Source: Longicatena caecimuris (GTDB lineage Bacteria; Bacillota_I; Bacilli_A; Erysipelotrichales; Erysipelotrichaceae). Taken from it: a stretch of 64,000 nt of DNA. The notes under the pieces are model-generated. The model saw only the letters and a list, made by a program, of their open reading frames with translations. It made no database searches and was not told where the DNA came from. This document shows positions 17,764 through 45,436 of the stretch, piece after piece. Position numbers and translations under genes: made by a program. The DNA is taken from contig NZ_SMBP01000008.1 in NCBI RefSeq assembly GCF_004341945.1, positions 1 to 64,000 of the forward strand. The letters are read 5' to 3'. The number at the start of each line of letters is the position of its first letter. Positions within the stretch are counted from its first letter, which is position 1.

Positions 17764-18084
17764 AGTTGTCCTCCTCATCAAATTTGTAAGCAAATTATAC
17801 CATAATCCTTGTAATTACTTATGAAGTATTTCTTACAATTCACAAGTTGTCAAAATCTTTTTCTTTCATACAATTGATTTCATATTATATCCAAAAAGAA
17901 AACATTTTTAGCTAAATGAGGTGATTTCGCACAAGATTAAAAAAAATTAATGGGTAAGATTAAAAACGTGAAAAGAGATATTAAAAAAGTTATCGATATT
18001 TTTTCAAAATATGACGAATATATGATAAAATATTACGAGATGGAAAAAGGATTCAGATGCTAGGAGTATGAAAGAAGGATGATT
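17764..18084. other. AT-rich intergenic region upstream of the SARP regulator
   Basis: It contains two copies of AAGATTAAAAA 23 bases apart (17933 and 17956) and several possible -10 boxes around 18018-18030. No promoter could be fixed with confidence. The TGTGAC pairs found in front of the downstream units are absent here. Confidence 0.3.
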
Positions 18085-19293
18085 ATGGGTATGCCTGAAA
18101 CAGAGGTCGTGAAAGTACAAATGTTTGAGGATTTGGTACTTCGTTATCGACAAAATCTTGTCAGCAGTCATGATTTTCATTCGGACAAGATTGCGAAATT
18201 GCTGGTATATTTTTTGATGAATCATACACGAATTATTGAGGGTAGTGAGTTATGTGACTTTCTTTGGCAAAAAGGAGAAAGTAACAATCCAATCGGAGCG
18301 CTGAAAAATTTAGTATATCGTTTAAGAGTTACGCTCAAAGATACTTTAAAAAGAGATGACTTTATCGTTACCAAACGCGGGGCTTATGGATGGAATCCGG
18401 ATATCTTGTGTGAATTAGATTTTGAAATTTTTGAAGCTTCTTTTCATGAAGCTAAGGCAGCAAAAGACAGAGATGAAAAAAAGGAGTATCTAGAGCGCTG
18501 TGTGAATTTATATCGGGGCCCTTTTTTGCCTAAATTAAGCGGCGATCATGTGATTCTTACATCAGCAACATATTTTCAATCGTTGTATCATTCCATTATT
18601 AAAGATTTGTCCGCTATTTATGATGAAGAGCATTTATATGACACGATTGAAAAACTATGTAATCGGGCATTGAAATTTGAAACATTAGATGAAAAGATTC
18701 ATTATTACCTAATTAAGTCTTATCTTTGTCAAGGTAAGAAGAAATTGGCGATGCATCACTACAAACAGACGGTAGATTTGCTTTATTCACAGTTAGGTAT
18801 ACAACCGGATAATGAATTAAAAAATCTTTATCAGGAGATGTTGAAAGACCAAAAGGAACAGGAGCTGGATTTGCAAAAGATTCAAAGCAACATCCAAGCG
18901 GAAGGCTCGCCCAATGGTGCGTATTATTGTGAGTATGGCGTATTCCAAAATATTTACAGTTTACAAGCACGTCAGGCGAAAAGGTTAGGTATTTCTGTTT
19001 ATTGCGGTTTGATTACGGTGAAACCAATGCTCAACATTCCTAAAGGAAGTAAGATGTATTTAAATTTAATTGATCGTGCAATGAAAAACTTGCAGCATAT
19101 TTTAAGCATTTCTTTGCGTAGTGGCGATGTGATATCACGATTTAGCATGACCCAGTTTATTGTCCTATTGCCTACATGTAATTATGATACCGGCATTATG
19201 GTCATGAATCGTATTAATGAGAATTTTCATATCTATGATCCAACTTGTAAAGTGAAGTTGCTTTGTGAAGTAAAGGAATTAGAACTTAGTTAA
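18085..19293 (+). CDS. SARP/BTAD-type transcriptional activator
   Basis: Of three clustered ATGs, the one at 18085 is best spaced (6 bases) from AGAAGG. The 402-residue protein has an OmpR-like winged helix (about 5-105; ALKNLVYRLRVTLKD, then FIVTKRGAYGWN) and a bacterial transcriptional activation domain with TPR-like helices (about 110-265). This is the AfsR/DnrI (SARP) layout. The C-terminal part (about 285-402) resembles a degenerate GGDEF domain, with SMTQF in place of GGDEF before VLLP. It precedes the SipW/TasA-like locus in the same direction, and SARP-style direct repeats stand before all three downstream units, so it is very likely their activator. Confidence 0.88.
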   Translation: MGMPETEVVKVQMFEDLVLRYRQNLVSSHDFHSDKIAKLLVYFLMNHTRIIEGSELCDFLWQKGESNNPIGALKNLVYRLRVTLKDTLKRDDFIVTKRGAYGWNPDILCELDFEIFEASFHEAKAAKDRDEKKEYLERCVNLYRGPFLPKLSGDHVILTSATYFQSLYHSIIKDLSAIYDEEHLYDTIEKLCNRALKFETLDEKIHYYLIKSYLCQGKKKLAMHHYKQTVDLLYSQLGIQPDNELKNLYQEMLKDQKEQELDLQKIQSNIQAEGSPNGAYYCEYGVFQNIYSLQARQAKRLGISVYCGLITVKPMLNIPKGSKMYLNLIDRAMKNLQHILSISLRSGDVISRFSMTQFIVLLPTCNYDTGIMVMNRINENFHIYDPTCKVKLLCEVKELELS

Positions 19294-19303
19294 GATACCT
19301 CCC

Positions 19304-19330
19304 AAAATCAGATGCCAGCCATCTGATTTT
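19304..19330 (+). terminator. terminator after the SARP gene
   Basis: AAAATCAGATG-ccagc-CATCTGATTTT is a perfect 11-bp stem. It separates the regulator from the surface genes, which therefore need their own promoter. Confidence 0.7.
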
Positions 19331-19359
19331 CGTATGTTATATCATAACACTCTTTCATA

Positions 19360-19390
19360 TGTGACCGCTCTGTGACTTTGTTTTGATAAT
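19360..19390 (+). promoter_or_regulatory. SARP-type direct repeats and -10, unit 1
   Basis: TGTGACcgctcTGTGAC: two identical hexamers 11 bp apart (19360 and 19371), then 8 bases, then GATAAT (19385-19390). There is no normal -35. Known SARP operators are 11-bp-phased direct repeats ending about 8 bp before the -10, which this matches. Confidence 0.75.
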
Positions 19391-19463
19391 ATGATAGCGT
19401 AAGAAAGTATCATATCCATATTTGTAAAATATATAGTAAAGAATGGCAAGGAGGATGTAATAT

Positions 19464-22400
19464 ATGAAAAAGAAACTGTTGTGCTCTTTCGCAATATGTA
19501 TGAGTTGTGTCATGATGTTAAGTGCCTTTTGCAATCGTGAAGGATTTTTGTTTGCCAATGAAGCAATGGCCCAGGTTGTGGAAGAGACGGTAAATGATCA
19601 AACGGATGCAACAGAAGAAACCTCAGATGATAAAACCGTGCTTTCTGAAGATACAAAAGAAGCGGCAAAGGAAGTAACGCCGGTTTCAGAAGAAAAAGAA
19701 ATGGAAGATCAGATGGTGCCTGTAACACTGACATCAGAAATACACAATGGTGTAAAAGTTGTCGTTCAAGGAGACAGTGTGACGTTGGCAAATGGTAAAA
19801 AGGTGCTGGTTGAAGAGTTGCCAAAAGCAGAGCTTGTGAAAGTGAATACGGTTTTAGAAACTGTTTTGCAAGAAGAAAGCGAAATTCAAGCATATGATAT
19901 CACCTTAAAAGATGATAAAGGAAATATCATACAGCCGGCGGGAGAAGTAAAGGTTTCTTTTGTGAATATCGAACAAACACAAGAGGTCGATGTCTATCAT
20001 GTTGATCCTGATCATAAGAACGTTGAAAATATGAAGGCCATACAGGCTAAGGATGGTTCGCTTTCATTTGAAACAACACATTTTAGTACCTATGTTTTAA
20101 GAACGCCAATGCCAAGAGTCACCGATCCCATCGGAGATATCGAGACACTGCAGATAGAAATGCGTAATTATCCTTACACAATATATGCTTATGGATTTGC
20201 GAATTCAATCAAGATTCATGTATATGGCTTGGAAGATACAAAAACGTATCCTGCAAACAATGGTAGTTTTTATCGATTCAATACGTATAATATGCAAATA
20301 CCTTTAGAAATGGGACTATTGAGCAATACATATGAAATCGAAAAAGTTGTAACAAAGAAACTTGGGTTTATGAACTATGATAAAAATACGGTTGCAAATG
20401 GAACATTACTTCCTGTAAATGAAGGGAAGGTAACGCTGCACCTTACAGGAGATAATAAAGGCGCTGATTTCATTGATATATATGTAAAACCTAAGAATCC
20501 AAGCAAGAAAACATTAATTTTAAAAAATGCGTTAGACCCTACAGGATTGAGTGCTGCAGAACAAGAGACAGAATTGAAAAAGACCTATAAATATCAATTG
20601 TTCGATGCGTATACAAATGAGCCTATCAAACAAATGCTTTCATATGATTTGATCATTGATGGTAAAGCTACTTCCTTGACGACGTTAGATGATGGAATCT
20701 TGCGGGCGAAAGTTGGACGAGAACTTCAAATTGATGTTACGAAATTCAGTGGCCAAGAGGTATATATCAAGCAATTAAGCGGTGCGCGATATGAAACTAG
20801 CATAAAAATGAATGATGAGAACTTTAAGGTTTCATCTGATAAAAAATCAACAGTATTTGTCGCTAGCGAAACCTTACCAACGATGATAACGTATAAAAAC
20901 AAACGATTGGACATTGATGATTTAGTTGAACACAATAAGACATCGACGATTGTCGATTGGGAGAAGCGTACATATAATATTCATTTAAGCGCAGGATATA
21001 AAAATAATGAGGTAACGACGGTAGAAAACATGGATGTCCAATTTGTTTTAGATACTTCAGGAAGTATGTTATCGACAGATGCCGCAACTCCTCTCCACAC
21101 GCTTAATGATGTAAACAAATTAAATAAAAAGGCCATTTATTTTACCAAACCATATAAATTGACACAGGATATACAATATTCTCAGGGAATAACTTTTACC
21201 GCATTTGATAATGAAGCGGAATATACGAAACAGATTAAAGAGCGTTTAGCATCACATTTTTATCAAAATGGCAATGTTTATGGGGTTATCAGTACAGATA
21301 ATAATACACTTTTATTTTATGACAATACCAGTGAGGAATGGAAATACATCGACATTAAGAAGAATGGGACGGTTAGTACCAGTGGTGCAAAAACGCTGAC
21401 AAATGAGATCGTTGGTAAATATCCCGTAGTGTATTGTGATCGTTCCAGTGTTCTAATAGATGCAGTATCAAGTTTTGTGAAAGGGATGAATGCGGATAGC
21501 AATGTATCTATTATCACATTTGGCAATAATGCTACAGATGTAACAAAGGGATTTGTTAATGTTGGAAAAAATAAAGAAGAATTGTTGCAGACGATATTAA
21601 AATGCTCTGGTACACCATATCAAGGAACCAATATGGCAGATGGATTAACGATGGCAAAAAAGCAAATTGACAATACTCCTTCTTCTAATAACTGTTATAG
21701 CATTGTCTTTTCCGATGGTGCGCCAAGTTTACCAAAGGATATCGCAGAACAGGCGGCTGTGGATGCTGCCAAAGCTTTGAAAAAAGTAAGCTTAACCTAT
21801 GCTGTTTGTGCGGGTGAAGCGGATAAAGATTTTATGAAAAATAAGATAGCTTCCAGTCCTGATCAATTTTTAAGTACAGATAATATGACGGATATTTATG
21901 ATTTATTACAAATTATCAGTGATGAAGTGGGAGCTGCATCAATTCATGCGAAAATAACGGACTATATTGATCCTCATTTCACTTTGATTGATGAGCAAGG
22001 CAACCCATTACATGTCGGCGATAAGATCCTTGGTGGTGAAGGCATTATCGGAACTGTTGGACAGGATGAAAACGGCTGGTTTGTCACATGGGAAAATCAG
22101 TTGATTACTACCGGAGATAGTACCTGGTCAGTAAATATTAAGGTACAGGCGAAAGATGCATTTATGGGGAATAATGAAGTCACGACAAATGGCAATGGCT
22201 CCCAGATTGAAATACCTGATGGCGATACTACAAAAATTATCGAATTTGATAAACCGGTGGTAAATGTGAAAGAGTTAACGCTGACGGGTGGGGAGAATAG
22301 TGAAATTATTTTCTATGGTGAAGAAGAAGATTATGCTGCTATATTTGAAAATAAACGGCCTGCCTTTACCGCATCAGGTGAGGTAACGATTCCACCGTTA

Positions 22401-23090
22401 ACTTCTGATGAATTTAAACAACTGTTAAGTGATGATGCAACAAAGATTGAAAAAACCTATAGTTTTGATGACCGAAAAGCAGGTATCTTTCTGTATTCGG
22501 TTGAAACCAAGGGCGATAGTAAGACGATATTATGTACGTATATACCAAATACAGAGTCTGATGAAGAATACACGACCAATCGTGTCAGTGCGAAATGGGT
22601 GTATACGCTTAAGAAGGTAAAAGGGCAGTTGGATATAACGAAAACCATCAAGGAAGCCTATACATCAGAGAAACAAATAAAGGCAAATCAAAGCTTTATT
22701 TTCCGTATTGAAAGAAGATTGAAAAAAGAAGATGAAAAACCGGTAGAGGTATTCTATCAGGCGATTAATTTCTCTGCCAATACAAATGAAACTAGTAAAA
22801 CCATATCCGTGAAAGGTCTGAAAAAAGGCTATTATACGGTGATAGAAGAAACGAACTGGTCCTGGAAGTATCAGTTGGTTGCCCAATCGGATAATGATGA
22901 ACAGAATATAACGAATAATGAATTACTGTTTATTGGTCAAGAACATGGCATGTATTACGGTGTTGAAGAAGGTACGAAGGTAGCGGATATCAAAGATAAT
23001 CCAAGAAAATCTTATTTTACAAACAATCTTAGCAACACCTTAAAAGATGTATTAGGCGATGTAGCTGCGGCTATCAACTTACTGAACTAG
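19464..23090 (+). CDS. large secreted vWA-domain surface protein with Cna-B-like C-terminus
   Basis: A 1208-residue protein beginning after AAGGAGG, with a signal peptide (hydrophobic to about residue 25). An acidic Glu/Thr-rich segment follows, then beta-rich regions, a von Willebrand A domain starting near 525 with the MIDAS motif DTSGS at 530-534, GTNMADGL and SDGAP, and a C-terminal region (about 1050-1170) resembling Cna-B or DUF7601 pilin domains (QLDITKTI ... GLKKGYYTVIEET). No LPXTG motif or terminal membrane helix is present, so attachment must come through partners. vWA proteins of this type are often tip adhesins of pili. It is first in a unit with a SipW peptidase and a TasA-like protein, so a fibre-tip adhesin role is likely but inferred. 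Confidence 0.85.
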   Translation: MKKKLLCSFAICMSCVMMLSAFCNREGFLFANEAMAQVVEETVNDQTDATEETSDDKTVLSEDTKEAAKEVTPVSEEKEMEDQMVPVTLTSEIHNGVKVVVQGDSVTLANGKKVLVEELPKAELVKVNTVLETVLQEESEIQAYDITLKDDKGNIIQPAGEVKVSFVNIEQTQEVDVYHVDPDHKNVENMKAIQAKDGSLSFETTHFSTYVLRTPMPRVTDPIGDIETLQIEMRNYPYTIYAYGFANSIKIHVYGLEDTKTYPANNGSFYRFNTYNMQIPLEMGLLSNTYEIEKVVTKKLGFMNYDKNTVANGTLLPVNEGKVTLHLTGDNKGADFIDIYVKPKNPSKKTLILKNALDPTGLSAAEQETELKKTYKYQLFDAYTNEPIKQMLSYDLIIDGKATSLTTLDDGILRAKVGRELQIDVTKFSGQEVYIKQLSGARYETSIKMNDENFKVSSDKKSTVFVASETLPTMITYKNKRLDIDDLVEHNKTSTIVDWEKRTYNIHLSAGYKNNEVTTVENMDVQFVLDTSGSMLSTDAATPLHTLNDVNKLNKKAIYFTKPYKLTQDIQYSQGITFTAFDNEAEYTKQIKERLASHFYQNGNVYGVISTDNNTLLFYDNTSEEWKYIDIKKNGTVSTSGAKTLTNEIVGKYPVVYCDRSSVLIDAVSSFVKGMNADSNVSIITFGNNATDVTKGFVNVGKNKEELLQTILKCSGTPYQGTNMADGLTMAKKQIDNTPSSNNCYSIVFSDGAPSLPKDIAEQAAVDAAKALKKVSLTYAVCAGEADKDFMKNKIASSPDQFLSTDNMTDIYDLLQIISDEVGAASIHAKITDYIDPHFTLIDEQGNPLHVGDKILGGEGIIGTVGQDENGWFVTWENQLITTGDSTWSVNIKVQAKDAFMGNNEVTTNGNGSQIEIPDGDTTKIIEFDKPVVNVKELTLTGGENSEIIFYGEEEDYAAIFENKRPAFTASGEVTIPPLTSDEFKQLLSDDATKIEKTYSFDDRKAGIFLYSVETKGDSKTILCTYIPNTESDEEYTTNRVSAKWVYTLKKVKGQLDITKTIKEAYTSEKQIKANQSFIFRIERRLKKEDEKPVEVFYQAINFSANTNETSKTISVKGLKKGYYTVIEETNWSWKYQLVAQSDNDEQNITNNELLFIGQEHGMYYGVEEGTKVADIKDNPRKSYFTNNLSNTLKDVLGDVAAAINLLN

Positions 23091-23104
23091 AAAAGGGGAA
23101 ACTT

Positions 23105-23596
23105 ATGAAAAAGATATCGAATATATTATCTACGCTTCTACTGATTGTCGTCGTAATTCTTGCCTGCATCTTCTTCGTCCCAAGGCTGTTTGGTATACAG
23201 ACAATGGCCGTGTTGAGCGGAAGCATGGAGCCTCATTTTCATGTGGGTAGCTTAGTTTTTGTAAAAGATGCCGAAATCACAGATTTTGAAAAGGATGATA
23301 TCGTAACATTTAAGATTGGCAATGGAGATACTGTGGTAACGCATCGAGTGACGCAAGTGACAAAAAAAGGATTGAAAACTAAAGGCGATGCAAATCATAG
23401 TGAGGATGGAGGCTTGGTGACATCAGCGAATCTTGTCGGCAAAGCATTTTCCTTCTCCATACCGGTTTTAGGATATCTCGCTGTTTACATGAGCAGTCAA
23501 ACAGGAATCATTCTGTTGATAGGCGCAATCATCTTGGTCTTTGTATTGTCTTATATAGGAAGTCTGTTTGATAAAAAGGAGAAAGGAGCAAATTAA
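23105..23596 (+). CDS. sipW: SipW-type (ER-type) signal peptidase I
   Basis: A 163-residue membrane peptidase with an N-terminal membrane segment (about 8-28), the SGSMEP box (catalytic Ser40), THRV with His80 where ordinary bacterial signal peptidases have Lys, GDANHSED (Asp95 and Asp101) and a C-terminal membrane segment (about 130-155). The Ser/His dyad marks the ER/SipW class, which in Bacillus matures TasA and TapA. It lies 14 bases after the vWA gene and immediately before a run of TasA-like genes, its presumed substrates. Confidence 0.93.
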   Translation: MKKISNILSTLLLIVVVILACIFFVPRLFGIQTMAVLSGSMEPHFHVGSLVFVKDAEITDFEKDDIVTFKIGNGDTVVTHRVTQVTKKGLKTKGDANHSEDGGLVTSANLVGKAFSFSIPVLGYLAVYMSSQTGIILLIGAIILVFVLSYIGSLFDKKEKGAN

Positions 23597-23597
23597 C

Positions 23598-24257
23598 ATG
23601 AAGAATCTACATAAAAAAACACAATGGTTGATTGGTATTCTCATTCTTTTGTGTGTAAGTTGTGGAATAACGTTTGCCCTTCTTTCGCAAAAATCGCAGA
23701 CATCGGTAAATAACTTTACCGGGGGAGCGGCTATTGAACAGAAAGTGAATATCGCTATTCTTGAAAATGGCGCAACAACGCGTTATGAAGATGGTGAAGA
23801 AAATAATTTACATACCATTGGCAATGGTTCTTATGGAAAGGCAGTAAGCATTCAGAATGTGAATACTACAGAGTATCCGACAAAGGCTGCCTACATAAGA
23901 GTACGCTTTGTGACGGCTTTGAAAAATACGAGCGATGCGACTTACACCTACGATGATAAGGTTAAGGTCATTGCCACATTCAGTAATTCATCCTTGTGGA
24001 AATATGATGAGGCCACAAAAACGTTTTATTACACGGAAAAAGTAGCACCTGATGCCAAGACACAAGATTTGTTAAAAAGCGTGAAAGTTACGGATGTTTC
24101 ATCTGCATATCAAGTGGAAATTAAGGTCTTAGCAGATGCGATTGAAGCGGATCAGGCTACCATGAACAAGGTTTGGGGCATGGAGGATTTCAATGCTTTG
24201 CAAAAGCTTCCGACAACCCTTGATCTTATAAAGATGCAAATACCAAAGCAATCCTAA
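23598..24257 (+). CDS. SipW-dependent TasA/camelysin-like protein 1
   Basis: Start at 23598 after AAAGGAG, one base past the peptidase stop. The 219-residue protein has a signal region ending ITFALLSQKSQTSVNNFTGG-like, matching the pattern of SipW substrates (small residue, T/F/L, A, L/Y, then a short polar stretch and an N-x-F motif). The rest is a beta-rich domain with a closing segment VLADAIEADQATMNKVWG similar to other camelysins. No anchor is seen. It is the last gene of unit 1 and probably a fibre subunit or assembly partner. Confidence 0.82.
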   Translation: MKNLHKKTQWLIGILILLCVSCGITFALLSQKSQTSVNNFTGGAAIEQKVNIAILENGATTRYEDGEENNLHTIGNGSYGKAVSIQNVNTTEYPTKAAYIRVRFVTALKNTSDATYTYDDKVKVIATFSNSSLWKYDEATKTFYYTEKVAPDAKTQDLLKSVKVTDVSSAYQVEIKVLADAIEADQATMNKVWGMEDFNALQKLPTTLDLIKMQIPKQS

Positions 24258-24292
24258 ACACGCTTATTCGTGTATAAATAAGATAAGAAAGA

Positions 24293-24323
24293 AAGCCATA
24301 TCTAAGGAAGATGTGGTTTTTTT
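24293..24323 (+). terminator. terminator ending surface unit 1
   Basis: AAGCCATATC / GATGTGGTTT forms ten pairs (two G-U) around a 7-base loop and is followed by Ts. Confidence 0.7.
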
Positions 24324-24352
24324 CTAGAAAAAAATATAAAAATCTTTTTTCT

Positions 24353-24385
24353 TGTTACCATTATGTGACTACCTAAATGGATAAT
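24353..24385 (+). promoter_or_regulatory. SARP-type direct repeats and -10, unit 2
   Basis: TGTTACcattaTGTGAC: hexamers starting at 24353 and 24364, again 11 bp apart, one mismatch between them. GATAAT follows at 24380-24385, 10 bases after the second repeat. Confidence 0.65.
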
Positions 24386-24414
24386 AGGAGTGTCAAAAGA
24401 AAGGAGGTCACAGG

Positions 24415-25107
24415 ATGGGCATGAAAAAAACAATACATAAAGTAGCAATCGCAACGATTATGATAATAGCGTTATCCGCAGGAATGACATTTGCATTACT
24501 AAGTCATGTAACCGAAAGTGTTACGAATGTATTTGCATCTGATAAGAATTTGTCATTGGAACTGCGTGAACCACAGTGGGATGGCTATACATTTGATGAT
24601 ACCTACCCTACGGATATCCTTCCGGGTACAAGTGTAAAACCGGGTACGGAAAACAGCGGATTACAGATGGCTGAGAACTATCTGCCGGGGAATGTAATCA
24701 GTAAAGATCCCATGGTTAAAAACACAAGCGATGGTCTAAGTGAATGGGTTGCCATTAAAGTACAGTACTTTGATGAAAATGGTAAGGCAATTGGGAAAAC
24801 TGATTTCCAGAAAAAATATGCGAAAACCGCTTATCAAAACGATGAAGTTAATCCTAATTTCGTGAAAATTTCAGATCATGCGGCTATCGAAGAGTTATAT
24901 ATGTATACAAGAACATTGGATACAACTGCTGGTAAGAATATAACCGAACCGTTATTCTCATCCGTTATTGTAAATAAAGATTTAACACCAAACAGTAAGA
25001 ATATGTGGCCGACTTTTAGTATCAAGGTAACTGGCTATGCGGTACAAAGCGATGGAGTCAGCGAAGATGCAGCTAGGCAGGCATTAATTGAATTAGCAAA
25101 AGGATAA
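24415..25107 (+). CDS. SipW-dependent TasA/camelysin-like protein 2
   Basis: A 230-residue protein starting after a near-perfect AAAGGAGGT. The signal region ends MTFALLSHVTESVTNVFAS. The mature part contains EPQWDGYTF, a P-G-x-V-I-S-K-D-P motif (residues about 90-100) and KNTSDGLSEWVAIKV, the typical TasA core in which N-x-S and W/Y-V-A/R-V/I strands follow a PG-x-x-x-KDP turn. First gene of unit 2. It shares EPxWDG with the third gene of this unit, suggesting duplication. Confidence 0.85.
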   Translation: MGMKKTIHKVAIATIMIIALSAGMTFALLSHVTESVTNVFASDKNLSLELREPQWDGYTFDDTYPTDILPGTSVKPGTENSGLQMAENYLPGNVISKDPMVKNTSDGLSEWVAIKVQYFDENGKAIGKTDFQKKYAKTAYQNDEVNPNFVKISDHAAIEELYMYTRTLDTTAGKNITEPLFSSVIVNKDLTPNSKNMWPTFSIKVTGYAVQSDGVSEDAARQALIELAKG

Positions 25108-25130
25108 GGAAATCCTGGGAGGAAAGTAAA

Positions 25131-25913
25131 ATGAAAGCAAATAAAAAATTTTTCGGTACAGCATTGGCATTAGCCTTAGCATGTGGTGTTGGCATTGGAG
25201 CAACACTTGCGTATTTAAACCATGTGACAGAAGATAAAGTCAATACATTTACAAGTAGCAAGGATATTCAAACGGAGATTACCGAAACAGAATTCCATGA
25301 CGATATCGCAAGCAATTATTATCCTGGACAGGTTATCACAAAAAATCCGGGCATGGTAAACAATAGTGATACAGAAAGCATTTGGGTAGCTGTGAAGTTG
25401 GATTATGTAGATAACGACAAGAAAAAAGTATCGGCAGCAGAGTTTGAAAAATATGCCAGCATTGTCTATGGTTCTGAAGGTAATTATCAGAATGGTGTAA
25501 ATCCTGCTTGGATCAAAATAGCAAGCAACAATACAAGTGATGTGTATATGTTTTCACAGCAGGTAGCACCTCATACTACAACAAATCCTACAGTGTTTGA
25601 TGCCGTAAAGGTAAATACCGGCATTAAAGAAGTAATTAAAACAGAGTATGAAACGACGACCATTTATGATAAAGATAAGAATCCGATTGATGTAAAAAAT
25701 GAAGAAGTTAATACTAGCGTTGATTATTACATCGCTAATGAGCAAGGTGATCTTGTAAAAACCGATGTCTTTACATTGCCAAAGTTTGAAGTTGTTGTAA
25801 AAGGCTTTGCGATGCAGGCAACCGGTGTTGATGAAGCAACAGCGAAAACGGAATTGGTTAATTTAGTAAATGCCCATTTGGCAGATGGCGAAAACAGCTA
25901 TACAGCCAAGTAA
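25131..25913 (+). CDS. SipW-dependent TasA/camelysin-like protein 3
   Basis: A 260-residue protein preceded by GGGAGG. Signal region GATLAYLNHVTEDKVNTFTS fits the SipW pattern. The mature domain keeps YYPGQVITKNPG and VNNSDTESIWVAVKL, and a closing VVVKGFAMQATGVDEATAK. An inserted loop of about 40 residues (KTEYETTTIYDKDKN region) distinguishes it from its neighbours. Probable fibre subunit, second in unit 2. Confidence 0.85.
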   Translation: MKANKKFFGTALALALACGVGIGATLAYLNHVTEDKVNTFTSSKDIQTEITETEFHDDIASNYYPGQVITKNPGMVNNSDTESIWVAVKLDYVDNDKKKVSAAEFEKYASIVYGSEGNYQNGVNPAWIKIASNNTSDVYMFSQQVAPHTTTNPTVFDAVKVNTGIKEVIKTEYETTTIYDKDKNPIDVKNEEVNTSVDYYIANEQGDLVKTDVFTLPKFEVVVKGFAMQATGVDEATAKTELVNLVNAHLADGENSYTAK

Positions 25914-25936
25914 GTTTATAGAAACAGGAGGAAAAA

Positions 25937-26614
25937 ATGATGAAGAAGAGAACAAAATTAGGAGTATCACTGGCTTTGGTCGGAATTCTTGCGGTAGGTG
26001 GAACCTATGCATATTTGCAGTTTCAAACTGGCCCAGTTGAAAATACATTTACCTTTGGTGACAATGTAAATGGGGAAATCAAAGAGCCACATTGGGATGG
26101 CGAATGCTTTGAAGGAGAAACATGTGATATTGAGGCTACAGGTAAACAGGATGCACAAAACTTTACCCCAGGTCAGACAATTGCGAAAGACCCTCAGTTG
26201 AAAAACACTTCAAACGTACCTGCATATGCTGCTGTTAAAATTGAATATACAGGTGTTGAAAATGATACAGCTGTGACATCTTATGCGGCATTAAACAAAT
26301 TCGCAGAAATTGATTGGAATACAAATGATTGGTATTTCAATGCCGATCACACACTGGCAATTTATAAAAAAGCTTTACATCCAGATGAAAACAATGTTGA
26401 AAATAAAACAGTTCCAGTATTTACGAATGTAAAAATCAACGAACATGCCGTTTATCCAGAAGCAGGGGAAACCAATGATCTGGCAATGCATCACTTCCAG
26501 ATAAATGTAAAAGGTTATTTTGCACAAGCGGATAATATGGATGGCATGGACAGCATCTTGGCAGTGAAAACAGTATTTGAAGATTTTAAAGATTTTGAAG
26601 CTATTAACAAATAA
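25937..26614 (+). CDS. SipW-dependent TasA/camelysin-like protein 4
   Basis: A 225-residue protein after CAGGAGG. Signal region GGTYAYLQFQTGPVENTFTF. The mature part has EPHWDGECFEGETC, with two Cys nearby that could form a disulfide, FTPGQTIAKDPQLKNTSN, and a closing VKGYFAQADNMDGMD. Third of unit 2. Residues around EPxWDG match protein 2 of the cluster. Confidence 0.85.
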   Translation: MMKKRTKLGVSLALVGILAVGGTYAYLQFQTGPVENTFTFGDNVNGEIKEPHWDGECFEGETCDIEATGKQDAQNFTPGQTIAKDPQLKNTSNVPAYAAVKIEYTGVENDTAVTSYAALNKFAEIDWNTNDWYFNADHTLAIYKKALHPDENNVENKTVPVFTNVKINEHAVYPEAGETNDLAMHHFQINVKGYFAQADNMDGMDSILAVKTVFEDFKDFEAINK

Positions 26615-26636
26615 ATGAGAAAAGGAGAAAATGAAG

Positions 26637-27263
26637 ATGGTGAAAAATAAAAAAATGCTCGCGTTAGCATTCATTGGTGTATTAGCAGTTGCAGGCATTA
26701 CAGGAGGTACTTTGGCATACTTTACGGATTCAAAGGTTGCAGAAAATACGATTACGATGGGGGATGTCGATATTAATTTAGAAGAGCCTGAATATGATAA
26801 GAATCATCCGGATAAAGAAATTACGGATGTAACACCTAATCAGGTTATTGAAAAAGACCCTACGATCACAATCAAAGAAGGCTCTAAAGCAGCCTACATT
26901 CGTTGTAAGATTAATGTAACAAGTGATGATGAAACCGCATTGCCTGCTGGCTATGCAGAGGCTTTGATTGCCAATACAAATATGGATATGACATTATGGA
27001 AAAAAGGCGCTGATGGCTATTATTACTATAAGAATAAAGTGGAACCTGTAGCACCAAATAATACGGTGAAATTCTTTAGCGAAGTTAAGATTCCAGAAAC
27101 ATGGGGCAAAGAAATGGCTAATCGTTCCATCAGCATGGATGTTACAGCAGAGGCTATTCAGGCCGATAACTTTACACCGGCCATGGATGAAGATGGATTC
27201 ATTACGGGTTGGTTCATGAGTGATGGTACAACTCCGGTAACGCCTGATAATTATAACAATTAG
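26637..27263 (+). CDS. SipW-dependent TasA/camelysin-like protein 5
   Basis: Of two ATGs, 26637 is 9 bases from AGGAG while 26631 is only 3. The 208-residue protein carries the clearest signature of the family: GGTLAYFTDSKVAENTITMG followed by DVDINLEEPEYD, close to Bacillus TasA/CalY. The core has TPNQVIEKDPTI and AAYIRCKINV, closing with MDVTAEAIQADNF. Last gene of unit 2. It is the best candidate for the main filament protein. Confidence 0.9.
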   Translation: MVKNKKMLALAFIGVLAVAGITGGTLAYFTDSKVAENTITMGDVDINLEEPEYDKNHPDKEITDVTPNQVIEKDPTITIKEGSKAAYIRCKINVTSDDETALPAGYAEALIANTNMDMTLWKKGADGYYYYKNKVEPVAPNNTVKFFSEVKIPETWGKEMANRSISMDVTAEAIQADNFTPAMDEDGFITGWFMSDGTTPVTPDNYNN

Positions 27264-27275
27264 GTAAGGGTACAT

Positions 27276-27317
27276 AAGGGAACGCATAGGACAAATCGTT
27301 ATGGCGTTTCCTTTTTC
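27276..27317 (+). terminator. terminator ending surface unit 2
   Basis: GGGAACGC-ATA pairs with TAT-g-GCGTTTCC, followed by TTTTT. Confidence 0.65.
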
Positions 27318-27391
27318 GATAAAATAGAATTCACAGAAAGAACAATGCATCATCAAAAACATCGTAATATTTTACATGTATCTATTAGCTT

Positions 27392-27424
27392 TGTGACTTG
27401 TCTGTGACTTTTGTTTACTATAGT
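27392..27424 (+). promoter_or_regulatory. SARP-type direct repeats and -10, unit 3
   Basis: TGTGACttgtcTGTGAC: identical hexamers at 27392 and 27403, 11 bp apart. TACTAT (27416) or TATAGT (27419) lies 7-10 bases further on. The sequence after the repeats (TTTTGTTT) resembles that of unit 1 (TTTGTTTT). Confidence 0.7.
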
Positions 27425-27463
27425 ATATATGTAGAAAGGTGTAATCGAACAGGAGGGGTAGCA

Positions 27464-28105
27464 ATGAAGAAAAAAGTCTTACTTGCAATAGCAGCTCTTC
27501 TTTTATTGGTTTTTGTATATCAAGGTTCCTTGGCTTTTTTCCGTAAAGAAAAAGGAGTCAGTACTCCTATCAGTGCGAAGACACTTGGTATCGAATTAAT
27601 TGATCATACAGATGATACAAGAGCAGAAATGACAGCTGAAGGCTATACCTTTAAAAACGTGATGCCCAATGATGCATTGCATCGTGAAGTATGTGTGAAG
27701 AATGTAAAAGAAAAGAATTTATATGTGAGAATCACCGCAACACGTTACTGGAAAGATCGTGATGGCAAAAAAGTAAAGGGTAGTGATGCATCCTTAATTC
27801 AACTGGTGACAGCGCAACCAGAAAATTGGATTATTTTGGATGATGGCAAAGCAAGCAATCATGAAATAGTATATTTCTATTATAAGAAACCCATTTTGCC
27901 ACAAGATCAATCTGATAATGTAATTGATCGTATTGTGTTAAGTGAAGATATTAAAGGTGAAGAATATCAGGAATATCAGGCTTACCTGCATTTGCAGGCA
28001 GATGCTATTCAAGATGTCGTTGCACAAGAGGCTATTTTAGCTGAATGGGGAATTGAAGCTACTTTTGATAAGCAGGGCAATATCACTTCCATTGAAGAAC
28101 AGTAA
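27464..28105 (+). CDS. SipW-dependent TasA-like protein 6 (divergent)
   Basis: Start at 27464 after AGGAGGGG. The 213-residue protein has a signal region QGSLAFFRKEKGVSTPISAK, a diverged version of the SipW pattern, then NVMPNDALHREVCVKNVKEK and LYVRITATRYW, the same PN/PG turn and strand order as the other TasA-like proteins. First gene of unit 3, so it travels with the two anchored proteins and may join the fibre to them. Confidence 0.78.
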   Translation: MKKKVLLAIAALLLLVFVYQGSLAFFRKEKGVSTPISAKTLGIELIDHTDDTRAEMTAEGYTFKNVMPNDALHREVCVKNVKEKNLYVRITATRYWKDRDGKKVKGSDASLIQLVTAQPENWIILDDGKASNHEIVYFYYKKPILPQDQSDNVIDRIVLSEDIKGEEYQEYQAYLHLQADAIQDVVAQEAILAEWGIEATFDKQGNITSIEEQ

Positions 28106-28119
28106 GGAGGATGCTATAT

Positions 28120-28779
28120 ATGAAAAAATTATGTATCATACCAGGTATACTGTTGTTTATGTTGTTTTTAATGCCTATCCATGCCAATGAAACACAAGGA
28201 CTTGTGTTTGATGGTGATGCAAATGAATTTATCGTTCAAGAAAATAATACCAAGGGATTTGAGGATATGATGCCTGGTGAAACCAGAACATTTGTGATTC
28301 AGCTGACCAATCAGGATTATCGCGAAATGAGTTATTATGTGAAAGCTGAAAACTCTAAAACCTTAGGGAAGGACGTTGTATATGATGTAACGTTTTTAAA
28401 TAATTCTGAAACTTTCTTTAAAGCGCGTGTAGGAGGGCCGAAAGCGAAAGGAATACCTACATTAGAAGAAAACTATTTGTTAAAGAAGTTAAAAAAAGGG
28501 GAAAGCAGTACGGTAGAAATTCAAGTTCATCTGGATGGAACCTCTATGGATAACACCTATCAGGGAACACAGGGTGATCTGGGGCTGGTATTCAGTGTGG
28601 AATTTGATGAAAATAAACCGGTGGATAAGGTGATTGATACCATCGCCAATATTACTGGTGTTAAAACAGGCGATGTTACGCGACTTGGGGCCATCCTTGC
28701 AGTATTTTTAGGAAGTGCCATATTCGTAATTTTGTTATTGGTTAAGAGAAGAAAAGAAAGGGATGATGAGCATGCATAA
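28120..28779 (+). CDS. membrane/wall-anchored surface protein of the fibre locus
   Basis: Start at 28120 after AAGGAGG. The 219-residue protein has a cleavable signal peptide (ending PIHANE), an immunoglobulin-like domain (MMPGETRTFVIQLTNQDYRE ...) and, near its C-terminus, GVKTGD followed by a hydrophobic helix and KRRKERDDE. The order motif-helix-positive tail is that of a sorting signal; VKTGD-like motifs occur in place of LPXTG in some Bacillota, so sortase anchoring is possible. Its end overlaps the next gene. No sortase gene is in the locus. Confidence 0.75.
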   Translation: MKKLCIIPGILLFMLFLMPIHANETQGLVFDGDANEFIVQENNTKGFEDMMPGETRTFVIQLTNQDYREMSYYVKAENSKTLGKDVVYDVTFLNNSETFFKARVGGPKAKGIPTLEENYLLKKLKKGESSTVEIQVHLDGTSMDNTYQGTQGDLGLVFSVEFDENKPVDKVIDTIANITGVKTGDVTRLGAILAVFLGSAIFVILLLVKRRKERDDEHA

Positions 28780-29569
28780 AGCGATGAAACTTTGTTCTTT
28801 CCTTTTTAGCTGTCTCTTATGTATGAATATATGTGTGGTACAGGCAGCAAGCTATGAAATCAGTTTTCGCGGTGGTGTGAATGGTACGGTAGAAGGGCAA
28901 AAGAGTGTAACCTATACCGTAGAGGAAAATAGCAAATTTCCTGATGAACCACAGGTAGAAGCAAAAGATGGCTATGTATTTGTCGGCTGGAATAAACAAT
29001 TGCCTGAAGTTGGCTCTTTGGTAAATGGAAAAGAAGTCTATGTGGCCAGATATGCTGCTGTGGTATCCGGTATCCGTTACACAGTTCACTATGTAAATGA
29101 GATAGGTGTTGATATTGCGACACAAAGAACGATGGTGGCAGAGGAAGGCAATGAAGTCACACTTAGAGCAAAGGTAATTGCAGGATATGAAAGCAAAGAA
29201 AAACAAAGAAAGGTCATTGTTGATAAGGAACATCATGTCTTCAAATTTGTATATAAACTGATAGATAAAGATGCTGTGGATAAGAATGCAAATCAAAATC
29301 AACAAACGCAACAGACAACCGGTACAGAAACTAGCCAAGTGAGTGGACAAGAGCAAACCGTTGATAAGGAAACAGATGCAGTAAATGGGAATACGAAAGA
29401 TGAAATAAAAACGGAAAAAGAAGAAGAGAATAAAACACCGTTGGCAGGTTTGTTCGGTAATGATCATAGTAATATAGGATATCTTGCGGCAGGAGCAGGT
29501 TGCCTTCTGTTTCTGATCTTATTGTTCTTTTGGAAAAAACGAAAGAAAGAAAAAGAAACGCAACAGTAA
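28772..29569 (+). CDS. membrane-anchored InlB/MucBP-like surface protein
   Basis: Start at 28772 is 9 bases from AAAGGG and overlaps the upstream stop by 8 bases. The 265-residue protein has a signal peptide (ending VVQAAS), two small beta modules (GTVEGQKSVTYTVEENSKFP with GYVFVGW, an InlB B-repeat-like pattern, then VHYVNEIGVDIA, MucBP-like), a Gln/Thr/Glu-rich stalk and a C-terminal membrane helix (about 228-252) with WKKRKKEKE. There is no LPXTG. It is probably the membrane base or a wall-spanning stalk of the surface assembly. Confidence 0.78.
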   Translation: MHKAMKLCSFLFSCLLCMNICVVQAASYEISFRGGVNGTVEGQKSVTYTVEENSKFPDEPQVEAKDGYVFVGWNKQLPEVGSLVNGKEVYVARYAAVVSGIRYTVHYVNEIGVDIATQRTMVAEEGNEVTLRAKVIAGYESKEKQRKVIVDKEHHVFKFVYKLIDKDAVDKNANQNQQTQQTTGTETSQVSGQEQTVDKETDAVNGNTKDEIKTEKEEENKTPLAGLFGNDHSNIGYLAAGAGCLLFLILLFFWKKRKKEKETQQ

Positions 29570-30338: not shown

Positions 30339-30823
30339 GGCTCTAAATTAACGTGGGGTTTCAAAAAAGAAGTAATAAGGTTCGGAAATGAATAAATTAC
30401 TTCTTTTTTAAAGGCTGCTTATAGTATGCCCGGAAGGCAGGAAGGGATTTGATTCAAAAAATATCTGCCACATATAGCGCACACAAAGTGTCTGGCACGA
30501 TAGCGGATCAGACAAGAACGGCTGTTCAGCGCAGAATGGGTAATAGATTTAGTTTTATAGTCTTTAATATGTGTAGGAGAAAAACCACAGGAAGGACAGC
30601 TAAACTTTTTAGATACGAGAGTAATATCGATAATCAAAGAACCGTTTTCACTTCGAGAAGAGGATAAAACATCTTTTTGAGGTATATTCAATAAATCTGT
30701 TATAATATCCATAGTGGAAAACTACTCCTTTCGTTAAGAATAATGTTTGACAACGATATTCTACAACGAAAGGTTTTTTGTGAAATGAACAAAAGAACCC
30801 ATCCCACAATAATTTAAATATCC
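30339..30823 (-). mobile_element. internally deleted ISL3-family insertion sequence
   Basis: Imperfect terminal inverted repeats GGCTCT..AAATTAACGTGGGG (from 30339) and, on the other strand, GGATATTTAAATTATTGTGGGA (from 30823) bound a 485-base remnant holding only the first 97 codons of a transposase. TTGTTTC is found just outside both ends (30331-30337 and 30825-30831), extended to CTTGTTTC/TTTGTTTC, consistent with the 8-bp target duplication of ISL3 elements with one later change. Full elements are about 1.4 kb, so most of the transposase has been lost. Confidence 0.72.
30419..30712 (-). pseudogene. ISL3-family transposase, N-terminal fragment
   Basis: Ninety-seven codons carrying the N-terminal zinc ribbon of ISL3 transposases: CPSCGF, then HFVCAICGRYF. 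Full-length proteins are more than 400 residues with a DDE domain, none of which remains. A stop follows LPGIL, then 80 bases to the IS end. Confidence 0.82.
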
Positions 30824-30833
30824 TTTGTTTCCC

Positions 30834-30878
30834 TTTTTTCTTTTGAAGAAAAAGATTACATATGTTCTACGCAATCTA
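30834..30878. repeat. 45-bp direct repeat, left copy
   Basis: Matches 38158-38202 at 43 of 45 positions, ending CTACGCAATCTA. The right copy lies within an intact 43-codon gene; this left copy is a fragment of the same gene, placed between the IS end and the decayed TOPRIM gene. Confidence 0.85.
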
Positions 30879-30888
30879 AATATCGAAT

Positions 30889-31903
30889 ATGTCTTATATC
30901 AAGCTTGAATTATTAAACAAAATCAAGAAAGTTGATTTACTTACTTGTTAAATTATCAGTCAGAGCGATTAAAAAAGATATCACATAATACTTTTTGTAT
31001 AAGAGATCATGATAGTTTGCATATATCGAATGGATTATGGAATTGACAGTCTATGGAAATCGGAGGCAGATTAGCATTAGATTTTTTAATCAAAGTCGAC
31101 GGTTATTCATTTATGGAAGCAGCTGAATTAATTGCAAGAAGCCTATCATTAAAAGAACCAAAATACATTCCTTATTCAGAAAAAGAAAGAGATCGGAAAT
31201 TACAAAAGCCATTGCCTGAAAAAGATAATCAAATGGCAATCTATTATTTATTGAGCCAAGGAATTTCATACGATGTCATTTATTATTGTATCACTCACTA
31301 TCTTATTTATCGGTCTGTTTACCATAATCTTGAAACAGATAGAATATTTAGTAATATAGAATTTGTAGGGTATGAAAAAGAAACGCAGAGGATGCGACAT
31401 ATTGCATTGAGAGGTATAAATAATAACTTCATAGGTGACGCTACTGGAAGTGATAAGAGATTTTCTTTTTGTATAGAATCTGATCCTAATTGCCGTATAG
31501 TACATGTATGTGAAGCACCGATTGATGTGTTATCTCAAGCTACACTGCTTACTTTAGAAAATAAGAAGTTTAATCAAGATCATATTCTTTCGTTAACTAG
31601 AATTTATTGTTTAAAAAATGAAAACAAAGAAATTAAAATTTCTGTTGCACTGAATCAATTTTTAATAGATCATCCTCTGGTTGACAATATCATATTTCAT
31701 TTGGATTTAGATTGTACAGGACGAATGGCTATAAAAATTATTATAGAAAATATGGAATTAAGATGCTTACGTACAAATGCTATGATGAACCACCCCAGTA
31801 TTATAAAGATAGAAATGATAGCCTTAGTATAAGATTATGGATTTTTAGGTCAAAATCAAAAGTTAAGAAAACAAAAGACTTTAATAAAGATGAACTTTCT
31901 TAA
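30889..31903 (+). pseudogene. decayed DUF3991/TOPRIM (CHC2-type) primase-like gene of a conjugative element
   Basis: The reading frame can be rebuilt across three lesions. It begins MSYIKLELLNKIKKVDLLT at 30889; a frameshift near 30943 leads to NTFCIRDHDSLHISNGLWN, then a TGA at 31044-31046 (probably once TGG) and GGRLALDFLIKVDGYSFMEA. The body continues through a TOPRIM-like HVCEAPIDVLS and FHLDLDCTGRMA, and a second frameshift near 31765 moves to CYDEPPQYYKDRNDSLSIRL. This is the order of DUF3991/TOPRIM proteins found in integrative conjugative elements. The longest intact part is 31053-31832 (259 codons). It marks the island as the remains of such an element. Confidence 0.8.
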
Positions 31904-32077
31904 GAGAGCATAGATATATATAAGTAGCGATATGAATCTTATGTTCCCTTTAATATGTTATGTAAATGTGATAAACTATAGTTAGTGGATTATAATAGTA
32001 AAATTTAAAAAATTCATAATAAATATAAAGATTTTTTTAATCATATGACCTATTATTGATAACACAGGGAGGAAATT

Positions 32078-35000
32078 ATGGAACCGAAAGAATTATTAAG
32101 AAAATTGCATCCTGATCAATTTTCTGACTCTAAAGTAATAGACAAAATTGAATGTCCTAGAGATTTTTTAGATTTTTCAATTTCAAGATTATCTGAGCAA
32201 AATAAGCATTTTGACTTCGAAGAGTTTATACGAAAGTTGTTAGAACGAGAAATTTGCCCAAATTTAATAGAAGAAACAGGTCCAGCAGGTGGTGGTGATG
32301 GTAAAGTTGATACTGAAAATTACTCCGTATCTCCTAATAAACAAATATTTTGGTGGTATGGGCTTAATCCTACTAATGATAAGTGGGCTTTTGCATTTAG
32401 TTTAAAAAAAGATTGGAAATCAAAATGTAATTCAGATATAAAAAAAATAATTGAAACCAAACGCGGATATACTAAAATATTCTTTGTCACAAACCAAGCA
32501 ATCAAAAATAATATTAGATTAGAGTATCAGGATTTGAAAAAAGAAGAGACAGGCATAGAGGTAACTATATTTGATAAAACTTGGATTTTAGATAAGGTGT
32601 TACAAGATAAAAATTTAGATTTGCTGAAAATTTTAAACATCACTACACTTGTTAAAGAAAAACAAATTGGTATAAATGATATGAAAAAGCAAAAACGGCT
32701 TGAAGAGGTAGAGAAACGTTTAAGTGAGTATTCATCGTCTGGAATACTTAATCAAGATGTTCTAGATCTTGCTAATGAATCTGCAATCTTAAGCAGAGAT
32801 TTAGAAGAAAATGAAGACGTGGTTGTTGGTAAATTCGAACGGGCTTTAAGACTTTCAGGAAAAAAAGGAAATCATAAATCTGAAAACGAAAATTTGTATA
32901 ATTTAGCATGGTATTATCATTGGTGGTTAAATGATACTGAAAACTTTGAAAAATGGTATAGTGAATATGAATCCAAAGTCTTAGAAGGAAAGAATTTGGA
33001 TGAAATTATGGATTTAACAAATTTATGGACACTTTACTTTACAAGAAACGAAAGAAATTATGAAAAAACAAAAGATAAAACAGAAAAGCTGCTAAGTTTA
33101 TTATATGAGAAAGAAAATTCAATAAGCCGTGTTACTCAATTAATGGCTAAGACTAAAATTTGTATTATTAAAATAACGCTAAATGATGATGTTGATTCTC
33201 AATTTGGGCAACTGACAGCAATAGCCGAAGAAGCAGAAAAGTTTAAAGAATACAACTTTGTAGAGTTAGCAAAAATGATTGAAGTATTGCTACCTGTTTA
33301 CAATGATAATGAAAATTATAATTGCCTATATGAAACCATTACAGATAAATTAACAAATAGGCAAGGTGAAATACAAAGAGCAAAAATGTATGTGAAAAAA
33401 GCAAAACTTTTATCATCAAACTCAAATTATTACAATGCTATTAATTTATTAGGTAAATGTTTAACACTCCTATATAAAAATGAAACAGATGATAAACTTC
33501 TTGAAACTTATGTTAATATTGGTGGAAATTTTGATTCGATTGGTTTATATTATGCTGCCAAAAATTATTATATTGCTTCAATTACATTAGCTTTAGATAT
33601 TTTTTTAAGAGAAAATATTATGGATCCATTCTGGATCAAAATTGTAAATCGTGTAATAGATATTGAAATCCAAATGGGTAATGTAGAGGCATCAATACAA
33701 TGGATAGATATAAAAAATTTATTCTTGAATATCTTGTTTGAGAAAAATGAGCAAATAGATTTGGAAAAAGAACATGAATTTTTGATACAAAGAGATGCTT
33801 TGATTTCATCAGAAATTTTAAGCACAAAATTTGATGACTTTCAAATAATGGATAAAATCATTCATATTTGTAAAAAGAATGAATTAATCACATCTGAGGT
33901 AATGGCAAAATATGTGATAGGTGAATATGAAAATCAATTATTAAATGAATGTGAAAATGATAAGACGAAAGTTGATGAATTAGTCAGAAGTTTTTACGAG
34001 GATTCTTTATATCAAGAATTACCTAGTCCATCATATATAAACAAAAGAAGCAGTGAAATTACATCATCATTAAATGGCAATATTATATGTATTAAATTTA
34101 TTTCAACAAAATTATTGCATAGATTCGCTGAATTTTTAATCGCATTATTAGAAAATACATTTGCCACAATGTTCTTCTATAAAACTTTTATGCGGGGAGA
34201 TATCATTATTATCTTAGAAGAAAAAAATACAGGAAAATTCAGTATGAGATATTCTTTTGACGGTATAGACACTTATACGATAATTTTAGATTCATTAAAT
34301 TTATATGATATTTCTGTGGACAATCATAAAATTATAACTAATACTCTTTATGAATTATTAGTTAATATCCTAGCTGTAGGTTTCATTTATGACGATTTTA
34401 AAAAAACATTAGAAAAAATGCTGAAAGATGATGAGACATTTGAAAGAGGACTAAATCATACAAATAGCCTTTATAATCTTAATAAAATTTTTGGTAGTGA
34501 ATGTGAAGAATTTGCTATTCATAGGATTAATAGAACTTGTGAATGGTATAATGGCATTGAAATAAAACGAAAAGTGGAAGAAACTATTAATCCTTTTAAT
34601 GATGATAAAAATATTGTATATAGCGAACCTGAGAAAAAACTTTTTGAAAATATATCACAAGATGATTTCTATTCACCAGGACTTATAAAAAGCAATCATT
34701 GGGATTCGGCTGTTTGGAAAGGAGTAATGTATTTAGGAGATTTAAATAACAAAAATTTTATAAAAATTGGATTTTTGTTTCAGCAAGAAGGTGGTGCTAA
34801 AAGAGTTTTTCAAGATTTGATTAATGTTGCAACAACTGATGATAAATTCGGGAAAATTATTATTTCTTTCATAAAAGGAATTGATAAAAGCAGAAAATAT
34901 GATTATCGAATAATGGTTACTGGAAAGGTAGAATTACCTAAAGATAAAAAAGAAAAAATTATTATCAGTTCACCTTCAAGAATCCATACAATGAATTGCG

Positions 35001-35275: not shown

Positions 35276-35492
35276 ACTAGAAGTAATGGTTAACTTATTT
35301 TATTAACATTATTAAGAGATAAAAATGATATTTTTAGATATACCTGCAATGTATAATTATTCGAATGTAAATACACTATACCAGCAAGCACTGGATACGG
35401 ATAGCCATGTAGGCATCCTCCTTCCTTCCCCTTTTCTAGGGATAATCCCTATACCCTTGATGTAAAATATTTTATTGTCAGCTTTCATTACT

Positions 35493-35524
35493 CTCTTGAT
35501 AATCATCAAGAGTAATAGTACAAT
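35493..35524 (+). promoter_or_regulatory. promoter with operator palindrome for the HTH-DprA/PRTase pair
   Basis: TTGATA (35496-35501), 17-base spacer, TACAAT (35519-35524). A perfect inverted repeat CTCTTGAT-aatc-ATCAAGAG (35493-35512) covers the -35. A second palindrome TAGGGAT-a-ATCCCTA lies upstream at 35437-35451. The gene that follows has an HTH domain, so autorepression is likely. Confidence 0.65.
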
Positions 35525-35552
35525 ATATCTAAACAGAGAGGAAGCGAGTTAG

Positions 35553-43879: not shown

Positions 43880-45436
<1,557 letters not shown>

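Follow-up and report, generated by a model that had tools for sequence, protein, structure and literature searches.

The polymers closest to the system described here are those of TasA, in which residues 28 to 38 form the donor strand and are followed by F39 (PMC9674648), and those of BsaA, which form without a sortase and resist sodium dodecyl sulfate (SDS) and formic acid, also when made in Escherichia coli (PMC7395162). Here, we compare with them a locus of Longicatena caecimuris (assembly GCF_004341945.1, genome size 2.95 Mb) located in the window, i.e., the whole stretch of 64,000 nucleotides that was analyzed (positions 1 to 64,000 of contig NZ_SMBP01000008.1). The open reading frame (ORF) map places ten genes on the forward strand (to which all features below belong): a SARP-type regulator, a close-packed unit coding for a vWA protein, a SipW-type signal peptidase and the subunit T1, a second unit with T2 to T5, and a third with T6, S1, and S2. 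The initial annotation had grouped a SARP, a SipW, a vWA protein, six SipW-type proteins, and two anchored proteins in one cluster, and all ten genes were recovered in their places. We favor, with moderate confidence, a SARP-switched, sortase-free surface fiber assembled by donor-strand exchange, with a tip adhesin, a shaft of T1 to T5, the adaptor T6, and the anchored S1.

In the proposed mechanism, a SARP dimer would bind 11-bp repeats and switch on the units vWA-SipW-T1, T2-T5, and T6-S1-S2. The subunits would be exported by Sec, SipW would free the N termini of T1 to T6, and each freed N-terminal strand would fill the groove of the cell-proximal neighbor, as in TasA. The base would be S1, retained through its membrane helix or through a wall-sorting signal, and it would accept the strand of T6; T6 would accept that of the first chain subunit, T1 to T5 would make up the shaft, and the anchorless vWA adhesin would cap the tip with its C-terminal tail acting as a donor strand. 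At the joints of T1 to T5 and of the adhesin, a donor Asn and an acceptor Lys, aided by a Glu, would form a spontaneous isopeptide bond, and the T6-S1 joint would stay non-covalent. It is the order of the fiber, the position of the tip, the covalent bonds, and the binding of the SARP that we infer.

The signal peptidase (23105 to 23596) is of the archaeal/SipW type (TIGR02228, 3.4e-34, and NF046067, 1.6e-33; 118 and 116 bits), with the Ser (LSGSMEP) and His (VVTHRV) readable. A SipW gene in the same locus, as expected of TasA/camelysin systems, was also found in 36 of the 43 related loci that we mapped, which were selected by S1. The putative subunits T1 (23598 to 24257), T2 (24421 to 25107), T3 (25131 to 25913), T4 (25940 to 26614), T5 (26637 to 27263), and T6 (27464 to 28105) share one layout: the signal peptide ends in G(T/I)xA, after which come an N-terminal strand, a turn resembling a proline box, strands rich in Y, and, last, an A-x-[AE]-x-[IV]Q-like strand. 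The six SipW-type N termini can be aligned from end to end, both mutually and to a second genome, although the curated SipW-signal model TIGR04088 is passed by T3 and T5 only, T1, T2, T4, and T6 aligning below its cut-off. T2 is a phmmer homologue of T3; T1 (2.5e-4), T4 (7e-5; M73, 0.006), and T6 (2e-8) match TIGR04090, the BsaA family, all below cut-off, the best window score being 34.3 bits (T6) against the required 60; 17 of 22 members of the T6 clade match this family. T5 passes Pfam M73, and it was the only one of the six over the cut-off of camelysin PF12389 (31.4 versus 22.5 bits). No window protein exceeded the cut-off of NF046066. A profile of the mixed T1-T6 alignment had no match in the whole PDB, and separate T1-T5 and T6 profiles ranked TasA first, weakly (E of 0.03 for T1-T5); a BsaA structure was not found by sequence search with one family member as query. 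By the letter of the initial annotation, for which a lack of TasA/camelysin matches in most of the six would speak against a TasA-like fiber, the single camelysin match counts against it, and family profiles still link all six. Since the curated TasA and BsaA cut-offs are not reached, we describe the locus as working like TasA and BsaA rather than as a member of either family.

In the alignment of 33 subunits of the T1-T5 type, the mean column identity is 18%, and only four columns are invariant, namely the cleavage-site Ala, an Asn ten residues on, a Glu, and a Lys (in T5, Asn37, Glu50, and Lys73). Isopeptide-bonded beta-sandwich proteins combine a Lys, an Asn or Asp, and a catalytic Glu or Asp, and the Asn, Glu, and Lys of all 33 aligned subunits supply this combination. 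When more sequences were counted, Asn, Glu, and Lys were found in 35, 37, and 38 of 38 proteins of the T1-T5 type; in 1, 29, and 30 of 30 T-small proteins (the subunits directly upstream of T6 in sortase-type loci); in 3, 34, and 3 of 43 T6 proteins; and in 0, 3, and 0 of 44 S1 proteins. T6 and T-small also formed position-specific groups, partly with low support, in a tree of 107 TasA-like proteins. The six subunits of the initial annotation are six paralogues, better described as five chain-type proteins (T1 to T5) with the Asn/Glu/Lys set and a base adaptor, T6, devoid of the Asn and Lys. In a profile alignment to TasA, the subunit Asn falls on an Ala, and the Glu and Lys are kept. BsaA-family matches across Clostridia have the Asn and Lys, and most of them a Glu or Asp (fifteen loci checked, two of them left out for a wrong frame). 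Because a donor-strand Asn and an acceptor Lys and Glu have the make-up of an isopeptide bond, we propose that the bond forms between subunits, and self-catalyzed Lys-Asn locks may thus hold the distal part of the fiber. The open-library literature contained no report of isopeptide-linked BsaA or TasA fibers.

The candidate tip protein (19464 to 23090; 1208 amino acids) has a VWA domain that passes the cut-off and in which the DTSGSM motif is intact, and it lacks both an LPXTG motif and a C-terminal membrane helix. Its end had been called Cna-B-like; no Pfam match was found there, and the C-terminal block is 48% identical to that of a related genome (G006). Anchorless proteins encoded directly upstream of T1 or T-small carry, past the Cna-B-like part, tails of the form G-x-G-[VI]-x-N-x-[FYH] or V-x-N-x-F, which resemble the donor strand V-x-N-x-F of T1 to T4. 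The corresponding tails are DVAAAINLLN in the window (Asn1205, codon at 23076 to 23078), DVASAINQFINK in G006, and DAAIAINKYK in the locus L071. Other anchorless adhesins have an equivalent N-x-[FYHL] tail. A loose pattern is matched by 39 of 44 listed tails; a few unrelated ORFs are in this list, and some matches may be due to chance. T-small, which keeps the Lys and Glu without the Asn, fits as an acceptor of such a tail and a non-covalent donor to T6.

At the other end of the proposed fiber, S1 (28120 to 28779) and S2 (28769 to 29569) have ordinary signal peptides, a C-terminal membrane helix, and a basic tail. S1 is predicted to be a beta-sandwich with the motif VKTGD in its conserved tail, and a profile built from it found TasA first; S2 combines an InlB-type repeat with a MucBP domain (24 bits versus a cut-off of 23). 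Of 295 Erysipelotrichales genomes, 39 had an S1 homologue, as did 55 of 299 sampled from Lachnospiraceae, the family to which Robinsoniella peoriensis belongs; no plasmid copy of S1 was found. A scan of genome contigs yielded five loci. Among the 43 loci, S1 was always adjoined by T6 and in 41 cases by S2, a class C sortase was present in 23, and a SARP in 12. Eight loci had at least three TasA-like genes, six of them with a SARP in the locus; Massilimicrobiota timonensis, Longibaculum muris, and R. peoriensis are named examples. In G006, the order is T6-S1-S2-vWA-T1-SipW-T2-T3-T4-T5-SipW2-SARP, so that every gene of the window set is represented in another arrangement; what is conserved is therefore shared content and not a frozen order, and it is not due to chance. 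The recurrence of the set in other genera also removes an objection foreseen in the initial annotation, namely that SARP, SipW, and TasA-like genes might fail to co-occur in homologous clusters.

These patterns bear on a simpler explanation, which we consider unlikely but not negligible, in which the secreted T proteins form a TasA/BsaA-type matrix polymer of loose biofilm fibers, with the vWA protein, S1, and S2 acting independently at the surface and having only the regulon in common. In its favor, BsaA polymers occur mostly outside the cell and assemble by themselves in E. coli (PMC7395162), and the physical connection of the adhesin to the T proteins is a prediction here. However, loose fibers would not predict the strict T6-S1 adjacency, the position of adhesin genes immediately before T1 or T-small together with a conserved donor-strand-like tail, or the stepwise loss of Asn and Lys from T-small to T6 and S1.

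The T6-S1 cassette also occurs inside sortase-pilus operons, both in Lachnospiraceae and in some Erysipelotrichales. The usual order in Lachnospiraceae is a tip protein (vWA or other, with LPXTG), a pilin (LPSTGG), SrtC (often two), an anchorless D protein, T-small, T6, S1, S2, and SipW. Given the sortases in over half of the mapped loci, the locus could be a degenerate or alternative sortase-pilus locus, in which sortases would act on S1 at VKTGD and the T proteins would be accessory to pili built by sortases encoded elsewhere in the genome, where eight sortase-domain matches were indeed found; the end of S1 resembles a sorting signal, and some homologues carry LPNTG. We nevertheless rate this as quite unlikely, given that neither an LPXTG pilin nor a class C sortase gene lies between 18079 and 29569 and that none of the eight loci with at least three TasA-like genes has a sortase, the extra T2 to T5 taking the place of the pilin. 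The window locus belongs to a sortase-free class with additional TasA-like subunits. As T6-S1-S2 is found in both kinds of loci, it would serve as a base under two kinds of shaft, and it appears to be a separate and widely reused anchor cassette, something that the initial annotation had not seen.

The C termini of S1, in the window and in about 40 homologues, have a conserved [VI][KRQ]TGD directly before the membrane helix, at the position of LPXTG, which is kept even where the pilins of the locus carry LPSTGG. It is a possible non-canonical sorting signal; the open-library literature held no report of a VKTGD sorting motif. In addition, PilT/PilB-type ATPase-like genes and PilC-like proteins were repeatedly seen, by eye, near S1 cassettes and unlinked SARPs (PilT/PilB-like genes at L069, 359 to 1423; L073, 6650 to 7705; L079, 15382 to 16437; L089, 4044 to 5099; L104, 4974 to 6068; and L106, 3955 to 5016).

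For structural modeling with AlphaFold2, natural in-frame neighbor genes were read through their stops, the second signal peptide acting as a linker. The model of D-T-small-T6-S1 from locus L140 had a predicted local distance difference test (pLDDT) score of 78 and a predicted template modeling score (pTM) of 0.50; that of T6-S1 from L042 had values of 77 and 0.56. In the latter, S1 (residues 247 to 393) matched TasA (5of2) as the top row, with a Z score of 8.0 and a root mean square deviation of 3.2 over 134 residues, unrelated rows scoring 7 to 7.8. Matches of T6 start at residue 40 and its domain lists other beta-sandwiches, and a number of targets with a single domain, among them the domain-swapped pilin EcpA (3qs2), span from residues 23 to 29 up to 389 to 393, from which it is suggested that the T6 strand at 27 to 38 completes S1. 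This one of the two models lends weak support to insertion of the T6 strand into S1. Foldseek with the T6-S1 model returned only low-TM beta-sandwich matches, and in a fold search with the model of 1038 residues, matches to the D protein, predicted to fold like a pilin with a Cna-B domain, took up the list, which was uninformative for the T proteins. The models show folded beta-sandwiches, which is hard to reconcile with a functional amyloid fiber. Several amyloid-like properties have been reported for TasA fibers, as cited in PMC9674648; however, these fibers consist of folded subunits joined by donor strands (PMC9674648), and neither Congo Red nor Thioflavin T stained BsaA (PMC7395162), making an amyloid here highly improbable. 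Of the composite fiber with an adhesin tip and a membrane base that had initially been suggested, the fiber locus and the tip and base layout find support; the amyloid option does not, the relatives of the fiber being donor-strand (TasA) or covalent-looking (BsaA) polymers.

SARPs are known chiefly as activators of Streptomyces antibiotic clusters. The regulator of this locus (18079 to 19293) has a BTAD domain (Pfam, 53 bits versus a cut-off of 22.1; 6.3e-14) beside a Trans_reg_C DNA-binding domain just under the cut-off (24.8 versus 26.2 bits), which is the SARP-type architecture, and a degenerate GGDEF domain at its C terminus. Repeats upstream of T6 gave the box GT(G/T)AC-N6-GTGAC, with three copies in the window: TGTGACCGCTCTGTGACT before the vWA gene (19360 to 19377; -10 GATAAT at 19387 to 19392), TGTTACCATTATGTGACT before T2 (24353 to 24370; -10 GATAAT at 24380 to 24385), and TGTGACTTGTCTGTGACT before T6 (27392 to 27409; -10 TATAGT at 27419 to 27424). 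In 100 shuffles of the window, the mean was 0.04 copies and three were never reached. Written as the 11-bp direct repeat TGTGAC-N5-TGTGACT and allowing at most one mismatch, the genome has three sites, all at this locus; the same holds for the three sites in each of G006 and G219, and in Robinsoniella, where the locus is divided between two contigs, three of the four sites are found with one or the other part. Aligning 22 sites from this and related loci by the box alone, a -10-like hexamer (A at position 2, T at position 6) was found at a single fixed offset in all 22, whereas the maximum at any offset was 12 in 2000 shuffles. In published SARP promoters, the repeats are 11 or 22 bp apart and the 3' repeat lies 8 bp from the -10 (PMC10936776), and both the 11-bp spacing and the distance of the 3' repeat to the -10 agree with it here.

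The distribution of the box follows that of the regulator. The SARPs of the window, G006, G219, G208, G206, and Robinsoniella form a single clade (support 95/96) together with unlinked SARPs of G203 and G202, and every checked genome with the box carries a SARP of this clade, except for L091, a Lachnospiraceae metagenome-assembled genome with only a SARP fragment. No box was found in L068, whose SARP belongs to another clade, nor upstream of the T6-S1-S2 cassette in sortase-type loci. SARP control, initially proposed from adjacency, is thereby well supported for the vWA, T2, and T6 units, and the SARP may activate all three. We rejected a chance neighborhood, as some 20 further SARP loci in the family all lack adjoining SipW/TasA genes and the box couples the regulator to its targets. 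There was no report of SARPs on fiber loci in the open-library literature. Five Lachnospiraceae loci with the cassette (L137, L140, L142, L144, and L152) have SARPs outside the box clade, so that the association of SARPs with such loci may have arisen repeatedly. Massilimicrobiota timonensis (G203) has 15 box matches, many more than the other genomes, and its SARP regulon may therefore exceed the fiber locus.

Several points weigh against the fiber as we propose it. TasA keeps the Glu and Lys in a donor-strand fiber with no reported cross-links, so both residues may have a structural role. The tail of the window adhesin (AAINLL) bears only a loose resemblance to the GxGVxNxF tails, and two real partners, in L068 and L081, follow the tail rule badly or fail to follow it. 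The models are concatenated chains and not true complexes, with T6-S1 contacts deduced from aligned ranges; in them, the T6 strand has a pLDDT of about 67 (L042) or is disordered (L140), and the fold search with the T6 domain does not list TasA. Finally, binding of the SARP to the box is a prediction.

If the proposed fiber is correct, the Asn/Glu/Lys set would give a residue-level explanation for how BsaA-type fibers survive boiling SDS and formic acid with no sortase, an open question in PMC7395162. T6-S1 would be an anchoring module common to sortase pili and TasA-like fibers in common gut bacteria, and SARPs would gain a defined box and a surface-fiber regulon in Bacillota. More tentatively, we suggest a general class of sortase-free covalent fibers combining a TasA/BsaA-like donor-strand swap with an autocatalytic Lys-Asn lock between subunits, in which anchorless adhesins, or basal pilins of sortase pili, would attach by donor-mimicking tails to a TasA-like stalk held by S1, and a SARP regulon would control the sortase-free form in gut Bacillota.

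Directly downstream of the locus, an AT-rich stretch (30419 to 37947; G+C down to 0.27) contains a transposase-like fragment, a Toprim/DUF3991 protein, a 1065-amino-acid TPR protein, and DprA-like and phosphoribosyltransferase-like proteins, and is probably a mobile island. Farther on, two genes (38253 to 39101 and 43880 to 45454) code for collagen-like proteins with GATGPTG repeats and cysteine-rich N termini, similar to exosporium proteins, and explain the G+C peak at 44 to 46 kb.

Compared with described systems, the tapA-sipW-tasA operon of Bacillus subtilis resembles the window in its SipW-processed beta-sandwich subunits and a donor strand right after the cleavage site, both of which are predicted in the window, and in an alignable proline box, Glu, and Lys, but it has one major subunit without the donor-strand Asn of T1 to T5, no vWA tip, no S1-type base, and SinR control. 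The sipW-bsaABCRSD locus of Clostridium perfringens also combines SipW with several secreted proteins, and family members have the Asn/Glu/Lys pattern; however, its control is by a two-component system instead of a SARP, no vWA tip or S1-type base is described there (PMC7395162), and the window proteins score below the BsaA family cut-off. Sortase pili of Lachnospiraceae and Erysipelotrichales have T6-S1-S2-SipW and vWA tip proteins in common with the window and differ in their LPXTG pilins, class C sortases, and T-small. The Streptomyces AfsR/afs-box promoters likewise have direct repeats of 11 bp, the 3' one lying some 8 bp from the -10 (PMC10936776), whereas the window SARP system has a TGTGACT repeat, a Bacillota host, a degenerate GGDEF domain in place of NOD/TPR, and surface-fiber targets. 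Lastly, the archaeal thread Saci_0406 is, like the proposed fiber, a donor-strand filament with proposed isopeptide bonds between subunits, although it belongs to another protein family and the bond runs from the amino group of an N-terminal Asp to subunit n+2 and not between Lys and Asn (PMC9715654).

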